NCBI RefSeq assembly: GCF_000633935.1
Contig: NZ_KK214995.1
Coordinates: 301,402 to 365,401, forward strand
Source: Ectothiorhodospira haloalkaliphila ATCC 51935
GTDB lineage: Bacteria > Pseudomonadota > Gammaproteobacteria > Ectothiorhodospirales > Ectothiorhodospiraceae
Direction of reading: 5' to 3'
DNA length: 64,000 nucleotides
The notes below the pieces were generated by a model that was given only the letters and a program-made list of their open reading frames with translations, made no database searches and was not told where the DNA came from. Of the stretch, positions 188 through 6,177 are shown in pieces; positions within the stretch are counted from its first letter, which is position 1, and each line of letters opens with the position of its first letter. A program made the position numbers and the translations under genes.

Positions 188-208
188 GCCCGGTGCCTTG
201 CACCGGGC
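188..208 (+). other. Perfect stem-loop between receptor gene and cheR
   Basis: GCCCGGTGC and GCACCGGGC form a 9-bp perfect stem around a 3-base loop in the 83-base gap. There is no T-run after it, so it is not a clear Rho-independent terminator. It could lower read-through or act in mRNA processing between the abundant receptor and the scarce methyltransferase; that role is inferred. Confidence 0.45.
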
Positions 209-231
209 TCACATCGCCTGCGGTCACGCCC

Positions 232-1065
232 ATGCGTGACCGAGAATTCGATTTCAGGGATGCCGACTTCGAGCGAATCCGGCGAATGATTTATGAATAT
301 GCGGGCATCTCGCTCAACCCGGGCAAACGGGACATGGTCTACAGCCGTGTGGCGCGGCGCCTGCGTCAGGCGGGCCTGAACTCCTTTGAGGCCTATCTGG
401 ATCGCCTGGAGGTGGATGCCGAGGAATGGCAGCACTTTGTGAATTCGCTGACCACCAACCTCACATCCTTCTTCCGGGAGGCCCACCATTTTCCCGTGCT
501 CTCTGAACATGCCACCCGCATGCAGGGCCGTCTTCGGCGCACGCTGAGGATCTGGTCGGCCGGATGCTCCACGGGGGAGGAGCCGTTTTCCATCGCCATG
601 ACCCTGATCGACGCGTTCGGTAGCTGGACGCCGCCCGTGAAGATCCTGGCCACGGATCTGGATACACAAGTGGTGCGCCACGCTGCTGAAGGCATCTATC
701 CCATGGAGCGCATCGACAAGATGCCGCAGAGTGATGTGAAACGCTTTTTCCTGCGGGGCAAGGGCAGCCGTGAGGGCATGGTTCGGGTCAGGCCTCAGGT
801 ACGGGAACTCATCACCTTTGAGTCGCTCAATCTGCTGGGGCCAAGCTGGCCGCTCAAGGAGCCTTTTGATGCCATCTTTTGTCGCAATGTGTTGATCTAT
901 TTTGACAAGCCAACCCAGTACCGGCTGCTGTCCAGGTTTCATCCCCTGCTGCATCCTGAGGGTTTGCTGTTTGTGGGGCATTCGGAGAGCCTGGCCCATG
1001 CCTCCGACCTGTTCCGCTTGCAGGGCAAGACGGTCTGTGTGCCGGTGGCGAGGGGGCGCCCATGA
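232..1065 (+). CDS. cheR: Chemotaxis protein methyltransferase CheR
   Basis: A 277-residue SAM-dependent methyltransferase that methylates glutamates on chemoreceptors during adaptation. The N-terminal helical CheR domain (about residues 5-60) is followed by the SAM site SAGCSTGEEPFSIA (about 109-122) and the late motif FDAIFCRNVLIYF. I chose the ATG at 232, which opens directly into MRDREFDF; a GTG at 193 in the same frame would add 13 unlikely residues. No strong Shine-Dalgarno precedes it. Its last codons overlap cheD as ATGA, so the two are probably translationally coupled. The upstream receptor carries a CheR-docking tail, so this CheR most likely serves that receptor. Confidence 0.95.
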   Translation: MRDREFDFRDADFERIRRMIYEYAGISLNPGKRDMVYSRVARRLRQAGLNSFEAYLDRLEVDAEEWQHFVNSLTTNLTSFFREAHHFPVLSEHATRMQGRLRRTLRIWSAGCSTGEEPFSIAMTLIDAFGSWTPPVKILATDLDTQVVRHAAEGIYPMERIDKMPQSDVKRFFLRGKGSREGMVRVRPQVRELITFESLNLLGPSWPLKEPFDAIFCRNVLIYFDKPTQYRLLSRFHPLLHPEGLLFVGHSESLAHASDLFRLQGKTVCVPVARGRP

Positions 1066-1673
1066 GCGAAGGTTTCGAGGAGGTCCTGGCACCCAACCTG
1101 TATTACGACCGGCACTTCGACATGGATGCCGTCAAGATCCTGCCGGGAGAGTATTACGTCTCCAATCGGGAATTGCTGATGGTGACCGTGCTGGGCTCCT
1201 GTGTGGGGGCCTGCGTCAGGGATCGTCTGCGAGGCATTGGGGGCATCAATCACTTCATGCTGCCCGACGACAAGCGTAACGAGGACAGCCGTGTGGGCAG
1301 TTCCATGCGCTATGGGGACTACGCCATGGAGATCCTGATCAACCAGCTGATCAAGTTGGGGGCGCGCCGGGAAAACCTGGAGGCCAAGGTATTCGGTGCC
1401 GGCAATGTGCTGCCCGGGTTCAAGAGCAATATCGTCGGAGAGCGCAACGCCCAGTTCGTCACCGATTACCTGGCGACGGAGGGCATTCCCATCGCGGCAC
1501 AGGATTTGCTCGGCAATCACCCGCGCAAGGTGTACTTCTTTCCCACCACCGGGCGGGTACTCGTGAAGAAACTGCGCAGTCTGCACAACGAGACCATCAT
1601 CGAACGGGAACTGAGCTACAGCCAGAAACTGCGTCAGGCCAAGGTGTCCGGCGAAGTGGAACTGTTCGACTGA
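1062..1673 (+). CDS. cheD: Chemoreceptor glutamine deamidase CheD
   Basis: 203 residues. CheD deamidates receptor glutamines to glutamates, giving CheR its substrate sites. The catalytic cysteine is C47 in LGSCVGAC and the catalytic histidine is H64 in GGINHFMLP, 17 residues apart as in characterised CheD proteins. It overlaps cheR by 4 bases and is followed within 21 bases by an MCP-like gene. The protein is longer at the N-terminus and C-terminus than minimal CheD and ends in GEVELFD, which resembles the GDIELF tail of the next protein (see findings). Confidence 0.95.
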   Translation: MSEGFEEVLAPNLYYDRHFDMDAVKILPGEYYVSNRELLMVTVLGSCVGACVRDRLRGIGGINHFMLPDDKRNEDSRVGSSMRYGDYAMEILINQLIKLGARRENLEAKVFGAGNVLPGFKSNIVGERNAQFVTDYLATEGIPIAAQDLLGNHPRKVYFFPTTGRVLVKKLRSLHNETIIERELSYSQKLRQAKVSGEVELFD

Positions 1674-1694: not shown

Positions 1695-2927
1695 ATGCAG
1701 GGCTTAGGAATGGAGGCAATCATGCGGGCGCTCACACCCCACTGGCCGGCCGCCGTGGTCAGCGGGGTCGCTATCGTCGTCTGGGTGCTGCTGTCCCTGC
1801 CTGCCTGGCCAGGCATGCTGTTGATAGCACTTGCCTGGGTCGGCTCCTTGCTGTGGCAGACCCAAGCTGGCGCCCATGCCGGGCAATCCGCCCAGGCCCT
1901 GGCGGATGAGCGGCAGGGCACCCTGGACAGCGACCGCGAGTTGTGGGACCTGGTCGTTGAAATTGATGCCCTCATGGCGCCTGAGACAAGCGAGTTACGC
2001 ACGCTGGTGGGGCAGGCACGTGAATTGATCGGGGATGCCGTGCGTGATCTGCAGGAGAGCTTTCACAATCTCAACCAGACCTCCCGAGAGCAACAGGAAC
2101 TCGCCCTGAGACTGATCAGGGGGATGTCCAACGACCCCCAGGCGGCCACCTCCGGCGTTGAGGCCATCGACATGGACCAATTCATGGAGGAAAACGGCAA
2201 GGTGCTGGCCCAGAACGTGCGGATGCTCATCGACATGGGCAAGCACAGCGTGGAAGTGGCTCACCAGGTGGACGATCTCTCCAGCCTGATGAGTGAGATC
2301 TTCGGGCTGCTCGACAGTGCCAAGCACATCGCCGGACAAACCAACCTGCTGGCCCTGAACGCCGCCATTGAGGCGGCCCGTGCCGGGGAGGCGGGCCGGG
2401 GATTCGCTGTGGTGGCCCAGGAGGTGCGTAAGCTCTCCCAGGACTCGGACCAGTTCAACGAGCAGATCCGCGCCCAGGTGGAACAGGCCAACCGGCTCTT
2501 CGGTCATGCCCGGGAGGTGGTCGGTCGCATGGCCTCACAGGACTTGAACACATCCATCACCGCCAAGGGCAGCATGGACGAGATGATGGAACAGTTGCAG
2601 AAGCTGAATCAGAGCCTGGCCGAGGGGCTGGATCATATGTCCGGCGTTGCCGAGCGCGTGCAGCAGAATGTGGACGCGGCGGTCAGGCTGTTGCAGTTCG
2701 AGGACATTGCGGGTCAAGTGCTGGATCGGGCGCATACACGCATCGATTTCATGGAACGCTTTGTCTCCGAGCTGCGCCAACTGCCCATGGTGGAGCCGGA
2801 AAGATCCCAGCAACAGCTGGAACAGGCCCGTGGTCGGCTCAAGGCGCTGCGTGAGGAGTTACGGGATGCCGCTCACCGTCCCGTGAATCAGAAATCCATG
2901 GACGAAGGTGATATTGAACTCTTCTGA
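1695..2927 (+). CDS. Sensor-less membrane MCP-like protein with CheZ-like motif
   Basis: 410 residues from the ATG at 1695, which has GAGGAG 8 bases upstream; in-frame ATGs at 1677, 1710 and 1722 are less well placed. Two hydrophobic segments (about 18-35 and 37-54) are joined by a turn of a few residues, so there is no periplasmic sensor domain. A coiled-coil cytoplasmic part carries the MCP hairpin tip [20 protein letters not shown] followed by [13 protein letters not shown]. Further on, [12 protein letters not shown] (D337, Q341) resembles the DLTGQ active-site motif of CheZ phosphatases, and the protein ends in GDIELF. It could be an adaptor receptor, a CheY-P phosphatase, or both. Its place between cheD and cheB ties it to the chemosensory array. 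Confidence 0.75.
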
Positions 2928-2976
2928 TGCGATCCCAGTGGCCAATACAAGAATTTCAAAGCTGAGGGAGGGCGCT

Positions 2977-4035
2977 GTGGGTAAGCCGATACGGGTACTG
3001 GTGGTCGACGATTCCGCGTTGGTGCGCAAGCTTCTGACCGAGGTGCTGAACTCGATTGAGGGCATTGAGGTCGTGGGCACGGCCCAGGACCCGTATGTGG
3101 CGCGAGAACGCATCAAGAGTCTTGATCCGGACGTGCTGACCCTGGATGTGGAAATGCCGCGCATGGATGGCCTGACCTTCCTGCGCAACCTGATGCGTCT
3201 GCGCCCCATGCCCGTGGTGATGGTGTCCTCGCTCACCGAGCGCGGGGCCGAGGTCACCATGCAGGCCCTGGAGCTGGGCGCCGTGGATTTTGTCACCAAG
3301 CCCGCTCTGGATCTTGCCAATACCCTCAATGCCTACCGCGATGAGTTGGCCGCCAAGGTCAGGGTTGCGGCCGGGGCCAGAGTGCGCACCCTGGCAGCAG
3401 TGAAACCCAAGCATTCCGTCGACGAAATCCTGCCCGCCAAGGCAGTGGGGCACTGGCGTACCACGGACCGGCTGCTGGCTATCGGCGCCTCCACCGGGGG
3501 AACCGAAGCGGTGAAGGATGTTCTCATTGACCTGCCACCGGACAGCCCTGCCGTGGTCATTGCCCAGCACATCCCCGCAGGTTTCAGTGGCGCGTGGGCG
3601 CAACGCATGAACCGCCAGAGCCGGCTGGTGGTCAAGGAGGCCGAGGAGGGCGAACGCCTGATGGCTGGCCACGCGTACGTGGCACCCGGAGATCAGCATC
3701 TGATGGTGGCCCGGGATGGGGCCCGCTACGTCTGCCGCCTGAACATGGCCGAACCAGTCAATCGCCACCGGCCCAGCGTGGACGTGCTGTTTCGTTCCGT
3801 GGCCCAGGCTGCGGGCAAGAATGCCTGTGCTGCCCTGCTCACCGGCATGGGGGCCGACGGTGTACAGGGCCTCAAGGAGCTGCACGACATGGGCGTGGAG
3901 ACCATTGCCCAGGACGAAGCCACCAGCGTGGTCTGGGGGATGCCCGGAGAGGCCGTGAAGCGGGGTGCAGCCTCTCAGGTGCTGCCACTGGAGCGTATCG
4001 CCGAGGCCATGCTGAAGGCCTCCCGTGTGCGCTGA
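2977..4035 (+). CDS. cheB: Chemotaxis response regulator methylesterase CheB
   Basis: 352 residues. CheB removes receptor methyl groups and deamidates receptors when phosphorylated by CheA. The receiver domain has [12 protein letters not shown] and phospho-acceptor D57 in [10 protein letters not shown]. The esterase domain has S172 in GASTGG, H198 in IAQHIP and D294 in GMGADG, the same spacing as E. coli CheB. I chose the GTG at 2977 because GAGGGAGGG lies just upstream and the receiver begins at once; a GTG at 2908 would overlap the preceding gene and add 23 residues with no homology. The preceding gene ends 49 bases before. Confidence 0.93.
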
Positions 4036-4129: not shown

Positions 4130-4435
4130 ATGAGCATCAAACGTCACGTCGATGAAAAGACCAACCTGGTGACGATATCCGTGGGTGGTCGGTTTGATTT
4201 CGCCCAACACAAGGCCTTCCGCGACGCCTATCGGGATCTGCCCGCCCAGGGCACCCGCTATCGGGTGGACCTGAGCGAGGCCACGTACCTGGATAGTTCG
4301 GCCCTGGGCATGCTGCTGCTGCTCAGGGAACACGCCGGCGGCGATACTGCACGGGTGAGCTTGCGGGGCTGCAGCGACGATGTACGCCGCGTGCTCAAGA
4401 TCGCCAATTTCGATCGCCTTTTCACCCTGGAGTAA
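4130..4435 (+). CDS. STAS-domain anti-anti-sigma factor (HsbA/SpoIIAA type)
   Basis: 101 residues forming one STAS domain. The regulatory phospho-serine site is in YLDSSALGML (S56/S57). Proteins of this type bind an anti-sigma factor or kinase when dephosphorylated and are released by phosphorylation. The next gene, 11 bases downstream, encodes a protein with both a PP2C phosphatase and a HATPase kinase-like domain, the expected partner that sets the phosphorylation state. In Pseudomonas aeruginosa the HsbA/HsbR pair has this layout and links to flagellar and c-di-GMP control. GGAG lies 7 bases before the ATG. Confidence 0.85.
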   Translation: MSIKRHVDEKTNLVTISVGGRFDFAQHKAFRDAYRDLPAQGTRYRVDLSEATYLDSSALGMLLLLREHAGGDTARVSLRGCSDDVRRVLKIANFDRLFTLE

Positions 4436-4446
4436 ACCCCCACCCC

Positions 4447-6177
4447 ATGTCATTCGACGCGCATCCAAGCCCCATTCGAGGGTCCGGGATCACGGAGGCC
4501 GCTGCCCCCCGGGGGCTGGCGCTGGTGGTGGACGACGAACCCACCAACCGCCGGTTGCTCGCGCGCATGCTCAAGAAGGAGGGTTTCGACACTCTGGAGG
4601 CAGAGAGCGGCGCCCGGGCCATTGAGCTGTTCGAGGAGTCGCCCCCGGATATCGTCTTCATGGATGTGATGATGCCGGGGATGGATGGATTCGAAGCGAC
4701 CCGGCGCATCAAGGCCATGGCTGGCTTTGATTTCGTGCCCGTCATCTTTCTTACCGCGTTGCATGATGAAAAGTCCCTGGTGCAGTGCACGGAGTCCGGC
4801 GGGGATGATTTTCTCACCAAACCCTTCAACTTCAGCATCCTCAAGGCACGCATCACGGCCATGGAACGGGTGCGTGACCTGCAGCGCATCATCGCCGGAA
4901 AAAACCGGGAACTGGAGCAACTGCTGGAGCAGGATCGCCAGGAGCAGAAGCTGGCCGAACGGGTATTCAGACGGGCAGTGAACGACCGCAATGTGCATAC
5001 GGAACAGTTCGGGCTGGTACAGCGGCCCGCCACCACGTTCAACGGCGATCTGGTGCTCACCCAGGACCTTCCCGATGGGGGCGTGCGCATCCTCCTGGGA
5101 GATTTCACCGGCCATGGTCTCGCGGCTGCCATCGGCGCGCTGCCCGTGGCCGAGACCTTTCGTACCATGACCCGCAAGGGCGTGGATGACGAGCAGGTGC
5201 TGGACGAGATCAATCGCAAGCTGTATCGCGTGCTGCCGCCGGAACGCTTCATGGCAGCCTGCCTGGTTTCCATCCCCGGCTCCGGTCGAGAGATCCGCTG
5301 GTGGAACGGCGGCATGCCCAGTGCCTGGTTACGCACCCAGGAGGGCTTGCAGGAGCTGGCCTCACATGCCTTGCCATTGGGCATCCTGCCGGAGCTGTCG
5401 GATCGGGAAACGCCCCGGCGCGTGGCCGTACGTCGTCATGACCGACTGCTGATGATGAGTGATGGTCTGCTGGAGGCCCGTGATCCGGATGGGTGCATGT
5501 TCATGGATCATGGTTTTGCCGGGGTGCTGCAGGCATGGACCCACGGCGGGGCGGTACTGCCCGACCTGCTGCAGGCCCTCGAGGAGCACTGCGCCGACCA
5601 GCGGCCGGAGGATGATGTTGCCATTCTGGAAACCCCCCTGGACCCGGAACTGTTCAGCCGTCCGCCCGTGAGCCGTGAAAGTCACCCGCAAGGGGGATGG
5701 AACTGGTCGCTGACATTGGAGGACGAGCGTCTTGGGGACTTGCCCTCGCTGGAGTCTGCCCTGCGCCCGCTGGGATTGCTGGATGGCCTGGAGGAGGATG
5801 CCGGCCCCCTGGAAACCATTGTCAACGAACTCTACAGCAATGCCCTGGAACATGGGGTGCTGCGACTGGACTCTCCCATGAAGGCCGACCCGGACGGATT
5901 TTGCAACTATTATCAGGAACGGGGCCGGCGCCTGGCCGAGGGTTGCCGAGGGCGTGTGGATGTGAGCGTGGCCTACGAGCCCAGTGAGACGCACGGCGTG
6001 TTCCGCGTCAGGATCAGTGATTCCGGCCCGGGGTTTGACACCCACCAGTGGGACGATGTGTCGCTGGACACCACCCGCCCCTGGGGCCGTGGCATCGCCC
6101 TGGTGCGGGATCTGTGCGATACGGTGGCTTTTGAAGATTCTGGCTCCCGGGTGGAGGCTGTGTATCGGTGTCGCTGA
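4447..6177 (+). CDS. Response regulator with PP2C phosphatase and HATPase domains (HsbR-like)
   Basis: 576 residues with three domains. The receiver domain (about 15-140) has LVVDDEPTNRRLL, phospho-acceptor in FMDVMMPGMDG and the LTKPFN lysine. A short coiled coil leads to a SpoIIE-type PP2C phosphatase (about 180-400) with metal-binding motifs GDFTGHG, MMSDGLLEARD and RPEDDVAIL. The C-terminal GHKL ATPase (about 430-576) has NELYSNALEH (N box), ISDSGPGFD and WGRGIALV. Such proteins phosphorylate and dephosphorylate a STAS antagonist under control of their receiver, here surely the product of the preceding gene. No clear Shine-Dalgarno is seen. The end overlaps the LOV kinase gene by 10 bases. 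Confidence 0.9.
   Translation: MSFDAHPSPIRGSGITEAAAPRGLALVVDDEPTNRRLLARMLKKEGFDTLEAESGARAIELFEESPPDIVFMDVMMPGMDGFEATRRIKAMAGFDFVPVIFLTALHDEKSLVQCTESGGDDFLTKPFNFSILKARITAMERVRDLQRIIAGKNRELEQLLEQDRQEQKLAERVFRRAVNDRNVHTEQFGLVQRPATTFNGDLVLTQDLPDGGVRILLGDFTGHGLAAAIGALPVAETFRTMTRKGVDDEQVLDEINRKLYRVLPPERFMAACLVSIPGSGREIRWWNGGMPSAWLRTQEGLQELASHALPLGILPELSDRETPRRVAVRRHDRLLMMSDGLLEARDPDGCMFMDHGFAGVLQAWTHGGAVLPDLLQALEEHCADQRPEDDVAILETPLDPELFSRPPVSRESHPQGGWNWSLTLEDERLGDLPSLESALRPLGLLDGLEEDAGPLETIVNELYSNALEHGVLRLDSPMKADPDGFCNYYQERGRRLAEGCRGRVDVSVAYEPSETHGVFRVRISDSGPGFDTHQWDDVSLDTTRPWGRGIALVRDLCDTVAFEDSGSRVEAVYRCR

Follow-up and report, generated by a model that had tools for sequence, protein, structure and literature searches.

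The protein encoded at positions 1695-2927 of the plus strand, which we call P0001, belongs to an F7 chemosensory cluster of the ancestral type, in which gene order, architecture and C-terminal tail mark it as the McpA-like receptor. It is best read as a CheZ-like phosphatase that is anchored in the membrane and acts on the F7 CheY. That dephosphorylating this CheY would be the main job of the receptor we hold to be probable, by a modest measure. The window analysed is a whole stretch of 64,000 nucleotides from Ectothiorhodospira haloalkaliphila ATCC 51935. A first-pass annotation of it had drawn attention to an MCP-like protein with a CheZ-like motif; the McpA-like F7 identity, the conservation of the GDIELF tail and the occurrence of the module without a receptor part lie beyond that view.

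The gene runs from an ATG at 1695 to a stop codon ending at 2927 and encodes 410 residues. A Shine-Dalgarno-like GAGGAG is found at 1681-1686, 8 bases 5' of the ATG, and a second in-frame ATG lies upstream, at 1677. The protein matched the Pfam model MCPsignal (PF00015) with 94.2 bits for a cut-off of 34.6, and this signalling domain was the only one above cut-off of the 14 families listed at E 1, neither HAMP nor any sensor domain reaching that level in this search. The MCP models of NCBIfam stayed far under their cut-offs and the remaining matches were noise. Hydropathy analysis revealed two hydrophobic stretches that nearly touch (about residues 19-35 and 38-54; 1749..1856), with 17-residue means of 2.56 and 1.76, the best value past residue 70 being 0.95. 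The membrane region is thus devoid of a periplasmic domain, as in McpA-like F7 receptors. An AlphaFold2 model built on five alignment rows had low confidence (mean pLDDT 46, pTM 0.27) and placed helices at residues 5-34 and 37-93. The first-pass description of an MCP-like protein with no sensor domain and two membrane helices separated by almost no periplasmic loop was therefore confirmed. The tip of the MCP hairpin and its flanks, delimited by the Pfam match and by conservation, occupy residues 213-258 (2331..2468). Alignments and profile comparison delimit a CheZ-like segment at residues 326-346 (2670..2732), in which D337 (2703..2705) and Q341 (2715..2717) form a DxxxQ motif within LQFEDIAGQ. 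The motif does follow the hairpin tip, as the earlier annotation had it, at a distance of 105 residues from E232 instead of the 110 it gave. The protein ends with GDIELF (2907..2924). A protein 98.5-99% identical to P0001 was also found on a contig titled Spirochaetaceae (L045), which may be mis-binned.

All nine neighbours of the gene in its cluster were confirmed by Pfam. Read on one strand through the adjoining upstream stretch (L002) and the window, the order is cheY (L002:6335-6700), cheA, cheW, a large MCP gene, cheR (193..1065, CheR 199 bits), cheD (1062..1673, CheD 118 bits), P0001, cheB (2908..4035, CheB_methylest 215 bits plus a receiver), a gene for a STAS protein of the anti-sigma-factor antagonist type (4130..4435, STAS_2 67 bits) and one for a CrsR-like response regulator with SpoIIE phosphatase and kinase-like ATPase domains (4447..6177; SpoIIE, Response_reg and HATPase_c_2), those in the window all being on the plus strand. 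The listed start of cheB overlaps the receptor gene, and the true start may be further in. We also observed that the linker of the cluster's CheA (L002:6735-9125) carries five spaced [YF]G[FL]F..[AS]P repeats, possibly docking motifs. P0001 adjoins cheB and lies near the anti-sigma antagonist and serine phosphatase genes, as in an ancestral F7-type cluster (assigned here by gene order), and the layout closely resembles the published 'stage 1' order. According to passages of PMC7184735, stage 1 F7 systems have the mcpA-like receptor gene after cheB, stage 1-2 clusters have cheY without cheZ, and the genomes that carry them have cheZ only in F6 clusters. None of the ten genes of the P0001 cluster is a cheZ. 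The search for another cheZ in the genome, called for by the first-pass annotation, returned a single Pfam CheZ match, located elsewhere between genes read as cheY and cheA.

Clusters from other genomes supported the identification. A relative at L025 has the published order cheD-cheB-receptor-STAS-phosphatase (read by eye). The published stage 1 order was found at L300 and L301 and the stage 2 order at L302, L304 and L305, all with QFxDxxxQ homologues. At L297-L299, and also at L303, L309 and L310, the receptor gene stands directly before cheY, as in P. aeruginosa; three genomes with the P. aeruginosa gene order carry homologues at E 2.7e-36 to 6.7e-35. Throughout these loci (L297-L305, L309, L310) the homologues combine QFxDxxxQ with a tail ending in LF or FF. 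Because stage 1, stage 2 and receptor-cheY clusters thus carry the same kind of homologue, we identify P0001 as McpA-like. Relatives named in the literature are PA0180/CttP, VCA1088/Mlp44 and SO_2117, and their published trait is a conserved C-terminus without the aromatic residue of the CheR pentapeptide. In 51 of 52 McpA-like relatives, the corresponding position of the P0001 tail is V or I. A 2025 review (PMC11940527) gives, in the portion available, E-W/V-E-X-F as the tail of V. cholerae System III receptors including Mlp44. Reading GDIELF as a CheR pentapeptide was rejected, as it has no aromatic residue and the tail is common to CheD.

The role of the McpA-like receptor was termed unclear in the 2020 F7 paper. 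CttP has been tied to trichloroethylene taxis and described as a chemoreceptor. In S. oneidensis, McpA assembles with CheA3 of the Che3 system and its overproduction raised swimming in a CheA3-dependent manner, which the authors interpreted as receptor function (PMC9855816, as far as its accessible text goes); the words 'phosphatase' and 'CheZ' are absent from the main text of that paper. The overproduction effect would also fit a phosphatase that acts on CheY-P.

The motif of P0001 resembles the active site of CheZ. In E. coli CheZ, D143 and Q147 are catalytic; the Asp holds the conserved Lys of CheY and the Gln places the attacking water. The first-pass annotation had aligned FEDIAGQVL with FQDLTGQ of CheZ; in the CheZ that this genome encodes, the corresponding segment reads DFQDLTGQV. 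P0001 did not match Pfam CheZ (PF04344) at E 1 and we therefore do not class it as a CheZ. A relative at L130 reached 17.3 bits for a cut-off of 30.7. Fourteen matches to the model in all fell under the cut-off; nine were fetched, of which seven were DxxxQ receptors of about 400 residues. Profile comparisons included a sister group, G2, of proteins of about 400 residues, mostly with LQFQDRxSQ, encoded in another type of che cluster. The G2 profile aligned with CheZ at 86% probability (E 4.8e-6) over 62 columns, the two DxxxQ motifs falling in register. The motifs were also in register when CheZ was compared with the McpA-like profile (16%, E 0.0016) and with that of a third group of small proteins, G3 (0.2%). 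McpA-like and G2 profiles matched each other over 333 columns at 100% with 31% identity, a span that includes the hairpin common to MCPs. The CheZ link of the McpA-like group would thus run through G2. Built without CheZ, the G2 profile found CheZ genes down to E 7.8e-9. The D and Q residues sit on the polar helix side not only in CheZ but also in each of the three groups; with the two residues masked, their angle to the hydrophobic face is 100-178 degrees.

An ordinary but unusual receptor could in principle give the same picture, the motif serving the structure of a long coiled coil and its CheZ likeness having arisen by convergence of helical sequences. The known McpA-like proteins are described as chemoreceptors, and coiled coils easily match one another: in the PDB, the G2 profile ranked a Rad50 coiled coil ahead of CheZ (1kmi), whose E of 0.072 was not significant, and CheZ was not among the matches of the McpA-like profile. 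However, neither reversed profiles nor ordinary MCPs gave a match at the motif; six reversed-profile controls all remained at or below 2.9% against CheZ, and the ordinary-MCP profile (7%) aligned elsewhere. As the module also persists without the receptor hairpin (see below), we consider this explanation unlikely.

The CheZ-like phosphatase reading gains from conservation. D337 and Q341 were unchanged in 21/21 aligned relatives of the same bacterial family. Within the class, a profile of the C-terminal part (A2) matched in 70 of 274 genomes, from 55 of 221 genera, a few of these 70 owing their match to CheZ or G2. The motif was present in all 30 loci read from this survey, and together with the family relatives this argues against a chance occurrence. 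DxxxQ was invariant in 52/52 McpA-like sequences. When these were aligned with 15 G2 sequences, D337 and Q341 remained Asp and Gln in 67/67, the invariant residues outside 213-258 being Q334, F335, D337, Q341 and F410; F123 was kept in 66/67, residues 338-340 between Asp and Gln were variable, and the GDIELF tail was about as conserved as the motif. QFxDxxxQ was not found in the listed ORFs of the 12 other MCPs of the genome that P0001 matched. G2 had first been chosen by its QFQD pattern and the McpA-like group by A2, a profile that contains the motif, so that the invariance of G2 in the joint alignment is partly built in. Since the sequence sets had been chosen with the motif in view, we built HMMs from the part that precedes it. 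With that of the McpA-like group, the first 100 matches by score all bore the motif (98 distinct by their last 150 residues). Matches shorter than 480 residues carried it in 112/124 cases and those of at least 480 residues in 3/91, these three being longer ORFs within which a family gene lies. The searched pool, in which some genes recur in several loci, had been gathered mostly with motif-bearing profiles and motif-less relatives could therefore be under-sampled in these counts. The in-register profile similarity via G2, the strict conservation, the helix face, the company of cheY (see below) and the lack of cheZ in stage 1-2 F7 clusters agree with each other, and the CheZ likeness would accordingly be more than a chance string.

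The third group, G3, consists of proteins of mostly 137-204 residues with QFxDxxxQ and no MCP hairpin. Seven of ten G3 ORFs have the ELF tail, and their genes stand before cheR in F7-type clusters; nine of 17 small modules adjoin cheR. The G3 profile scored 97.5% against G2 and 95% against the McpA-like group. Four G3 proteins searched gave no Pfam match near cut-off (E 0.1) and no NCBIfam match (E 0.01). Strong G3 matches occurred in 31/274 genomes, and CheD was present in 31/31. One free-standing relative is encoded at L210:7848-8444. A further set of small modules (L306-L308, L268, L145) directly adjoins cheY. The existence of these proteins suggests that DxxxQ and tail may form the working core and that the receptor part is optional.

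Several other proteins were observed in the course of these searches. The genome of P0001 encodes on contig C4 an orphan DxxxQ protein of 181 residues ending in DDIELF (L208:8352-8897), with no che gene recognised nearby; its relatives are encoded beside a gene read as typA (L216) or ahead of one resembling glutamine synthetase (L217). At L223:8806-10578, no more than about 2.5 kb from a cheB-like ORF, lies the gene of a 590-residue protein with MQYDDISSQ, the tail DEIELF and no Pfam match above cut-off. The G2 profile is also matched by ORFs of about 1100-1300 residues (L218:9130, L219) from a different family of the phylum; that of L218 is beside cheY-cheA and has no clear QFxDxxxQ.

The module keeps close company with cheY and cheD. 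cheY was adjacent to 19/55 receptor-type modules, 5/17 small modules, 4/6 CheZ genes and 0/67 other MCP genes, modules being recognised by the motif and genes less than 1500 bases from a locus end and CheY ORFs of more than 160 residues being excluded. G2 stood beside cheY in 11 of the 16 loci judged. Outside the P0001 cluster, gene labels are best matches to the proteins of that cluster and not Pfam calls. Modules were taken as strong at A5 below 1e-20 and, for full-length A4 matches, below 1e-15. CheD was found in 77/80 genomes with such a module and in 15/194 of the others; seven genomes with weak A2 matches (best E above 1e-6) were dropped from these strict counts. Inspection of the 15 showed a small module in four (L261, L262, L268, L145). 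Three (L258-L260) have cheY-cheZ after cheB, no module and a CheD without ELF tail, five (L263-L267) have an ELF-tailed CheD with no module found in the stretch, and three (L269-L271) show neither or are unclear. cheY-cheZ followed cheB in four clusters, of which three lack both module and CheD tail. The F7-like cluster of L307 combines the two kinds: a small DxxxQ protein is encoded ahead of one cheY, and CheZ downstream of cheB and of a second cheY, which may represent a transitional state. At L096, CheZ and module genes are about 8 kb apart. The clusters of L258-L260 speak for the phosphatase reading, those of L263-L267, L307 and L096 against it.

The tail itself links the module to CheD. 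The CheD of the P0001 cluster ends with GEVELFD (1650-1670). Among 64 loci, the ELF tail was found in 23/34 CheD, 21/24 McpA-like proteins and the G3 ORFs counted above; it was absent from 54 other MCPs, 43 CheR, 45 CheB, 44 CheA, 44 CheW and 39 CheY, and occurred in 2 of 2142 unlabelled ORFs. Both partners were ELF-tailed in 24 of 29 listed pairs of CheD and module; the CheD of L130, L136, L140, L144 and L309 stands beside a module and has no ELF tail, which weighs against the proposed reading. Tails were also seen to be paired within a cluster, CheD and DxxxQ protein both ending in ITFF at L146 and in NIELF at L142. The shared tail hints at a common partner.

This association raises the question of whether the conserved patch serves CheD, either with Q341 as a deamidation target or as a docking patch. 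The co-occurrence counts, the presence of module and CheD in the same clusters and their mostly shared tails speak for such a role. However, the CheD deamidation consensus needs a small residue three positions before the target Gln, and position 338 is mostly Ile, Arg or Met. D337 is also just as invariant as Q341, and the CheZ likeness would be left unexplained, so that we judge a patch devoted to CheD very improbable. Bacillus CheD also binds CheC, more strongly with CheY-P (abstract of PMC3513319). CheC is a phosphatase, and the company of CheD therefore also fits the phosphatase reading. A second possibility is that the motif binds CheY-P or the CrsR-like regulator without catalysis, the receptor acting as a sink at the membrane or array. 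A conserved polar face and a shared tail suit binding as well as catalysis, and sequence cannot separate the two, but what stays constant is precisely the catalytic pair with the Gln-Phe ahead of it, while residues 338-340 vary; we regard pure binding as rather unlikely, if worth some weight.

If P0001 is a phosphatase, the two membrane helices would tether it and the MCP hairpin could place it in the receptor array. The Asp and Gln that face outward from the returning helix would play the parts of D143 and Q147 in CheZ, D337 holding the conserved Lys of CheY and Q341 placing the water that attacks the phosphoryl group. GDIELF may be a docking peptide for a partner common to CheD, perhaps CheY, in the manner of the C-terminal helix of CheZ. 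More broadly, and tentatively, since we rate this proposal slightly more apt to fail than to hold, the DxxxQ proteins may form an unrecognised CheY phosphatase family built on the CheZ catalytic helix. It would exist in three forms (McpA-like F7 receptor, sister receptor beside cheY, small soluble proteins), serve the CheYs of systems thought to be phosphatase-less and be coupled to CheD via the shared tail, CheZ and the MCP-like coiled coils having a common catalytic ancestor. Although the receptor family has been described before, its proposed activity and the free-standing forms appear to be new. Among the listed titles and abstract openings of the open-access literature, and in the accessible portions of PMC7184735, PMC9855816, PMC7534058 and PMC11940527, we found no report of a CheZ-like motif in McpA-like receptors or small proteins. 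If the proposal is true, P0001 is a candidate for the off-switch so far missing from an old, little understood system of bacterial signalling. It would terminate the signal in stage 1-2 F7 clusters, where this step appears to be lacking, and would represent a membrane-tethered phosphatase in the shape of a receptor, which can be compared with its naturally free-standing counterparts. The CheZ-like active site makes the role of the McpA-like receptor concretely and cheaply testable.

P0001 shares with the McpA-like F7 receptors PA0180/CttP, VCA1088/Mlp44 and SO_2117 the gene neighbourhood, the MCP hairpin, the lack of a periplasmic domain and an x-V/I-x-x-F C-terminus. Its gene lies between cheD and cheB, whereas the published receptor gene follows cheB, and the available literature passages on these receptors make no mention of its CheZ-like motif. 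The large Aer2-like receptor of the same cluster (L002:9665-12148) also has an MCP signalling domain, but differs from P0001 by its HAMP and PAS domains, by a tail of the CheR-tether kind (DEWEEF, the protein ending DDEWEEF) and by the absence of QFxDxxxQ. With CheZ (PF04344; PDB 1kmi), P0001 has in common F-x-D-x-x-x-Q on a polar helix face followed by an acidic-hydrophobic tail, and the cheY neighbourhood is common to CheZ genes and P0001-type modules. Unlike CheZ, P0001 has an MCP hairpin and a membrane anchor, has no Pfam CheZ match, belongs to a different gene cluster and ends in a conserved tail distinct from the DDLLSSLGF of CheZ. The CheC/CheX/FliY phosphatases differ from the DxxxQ proteins in fold and motif; they would have the same function as that proposed for P0001, and CheC, too, works with CheD.
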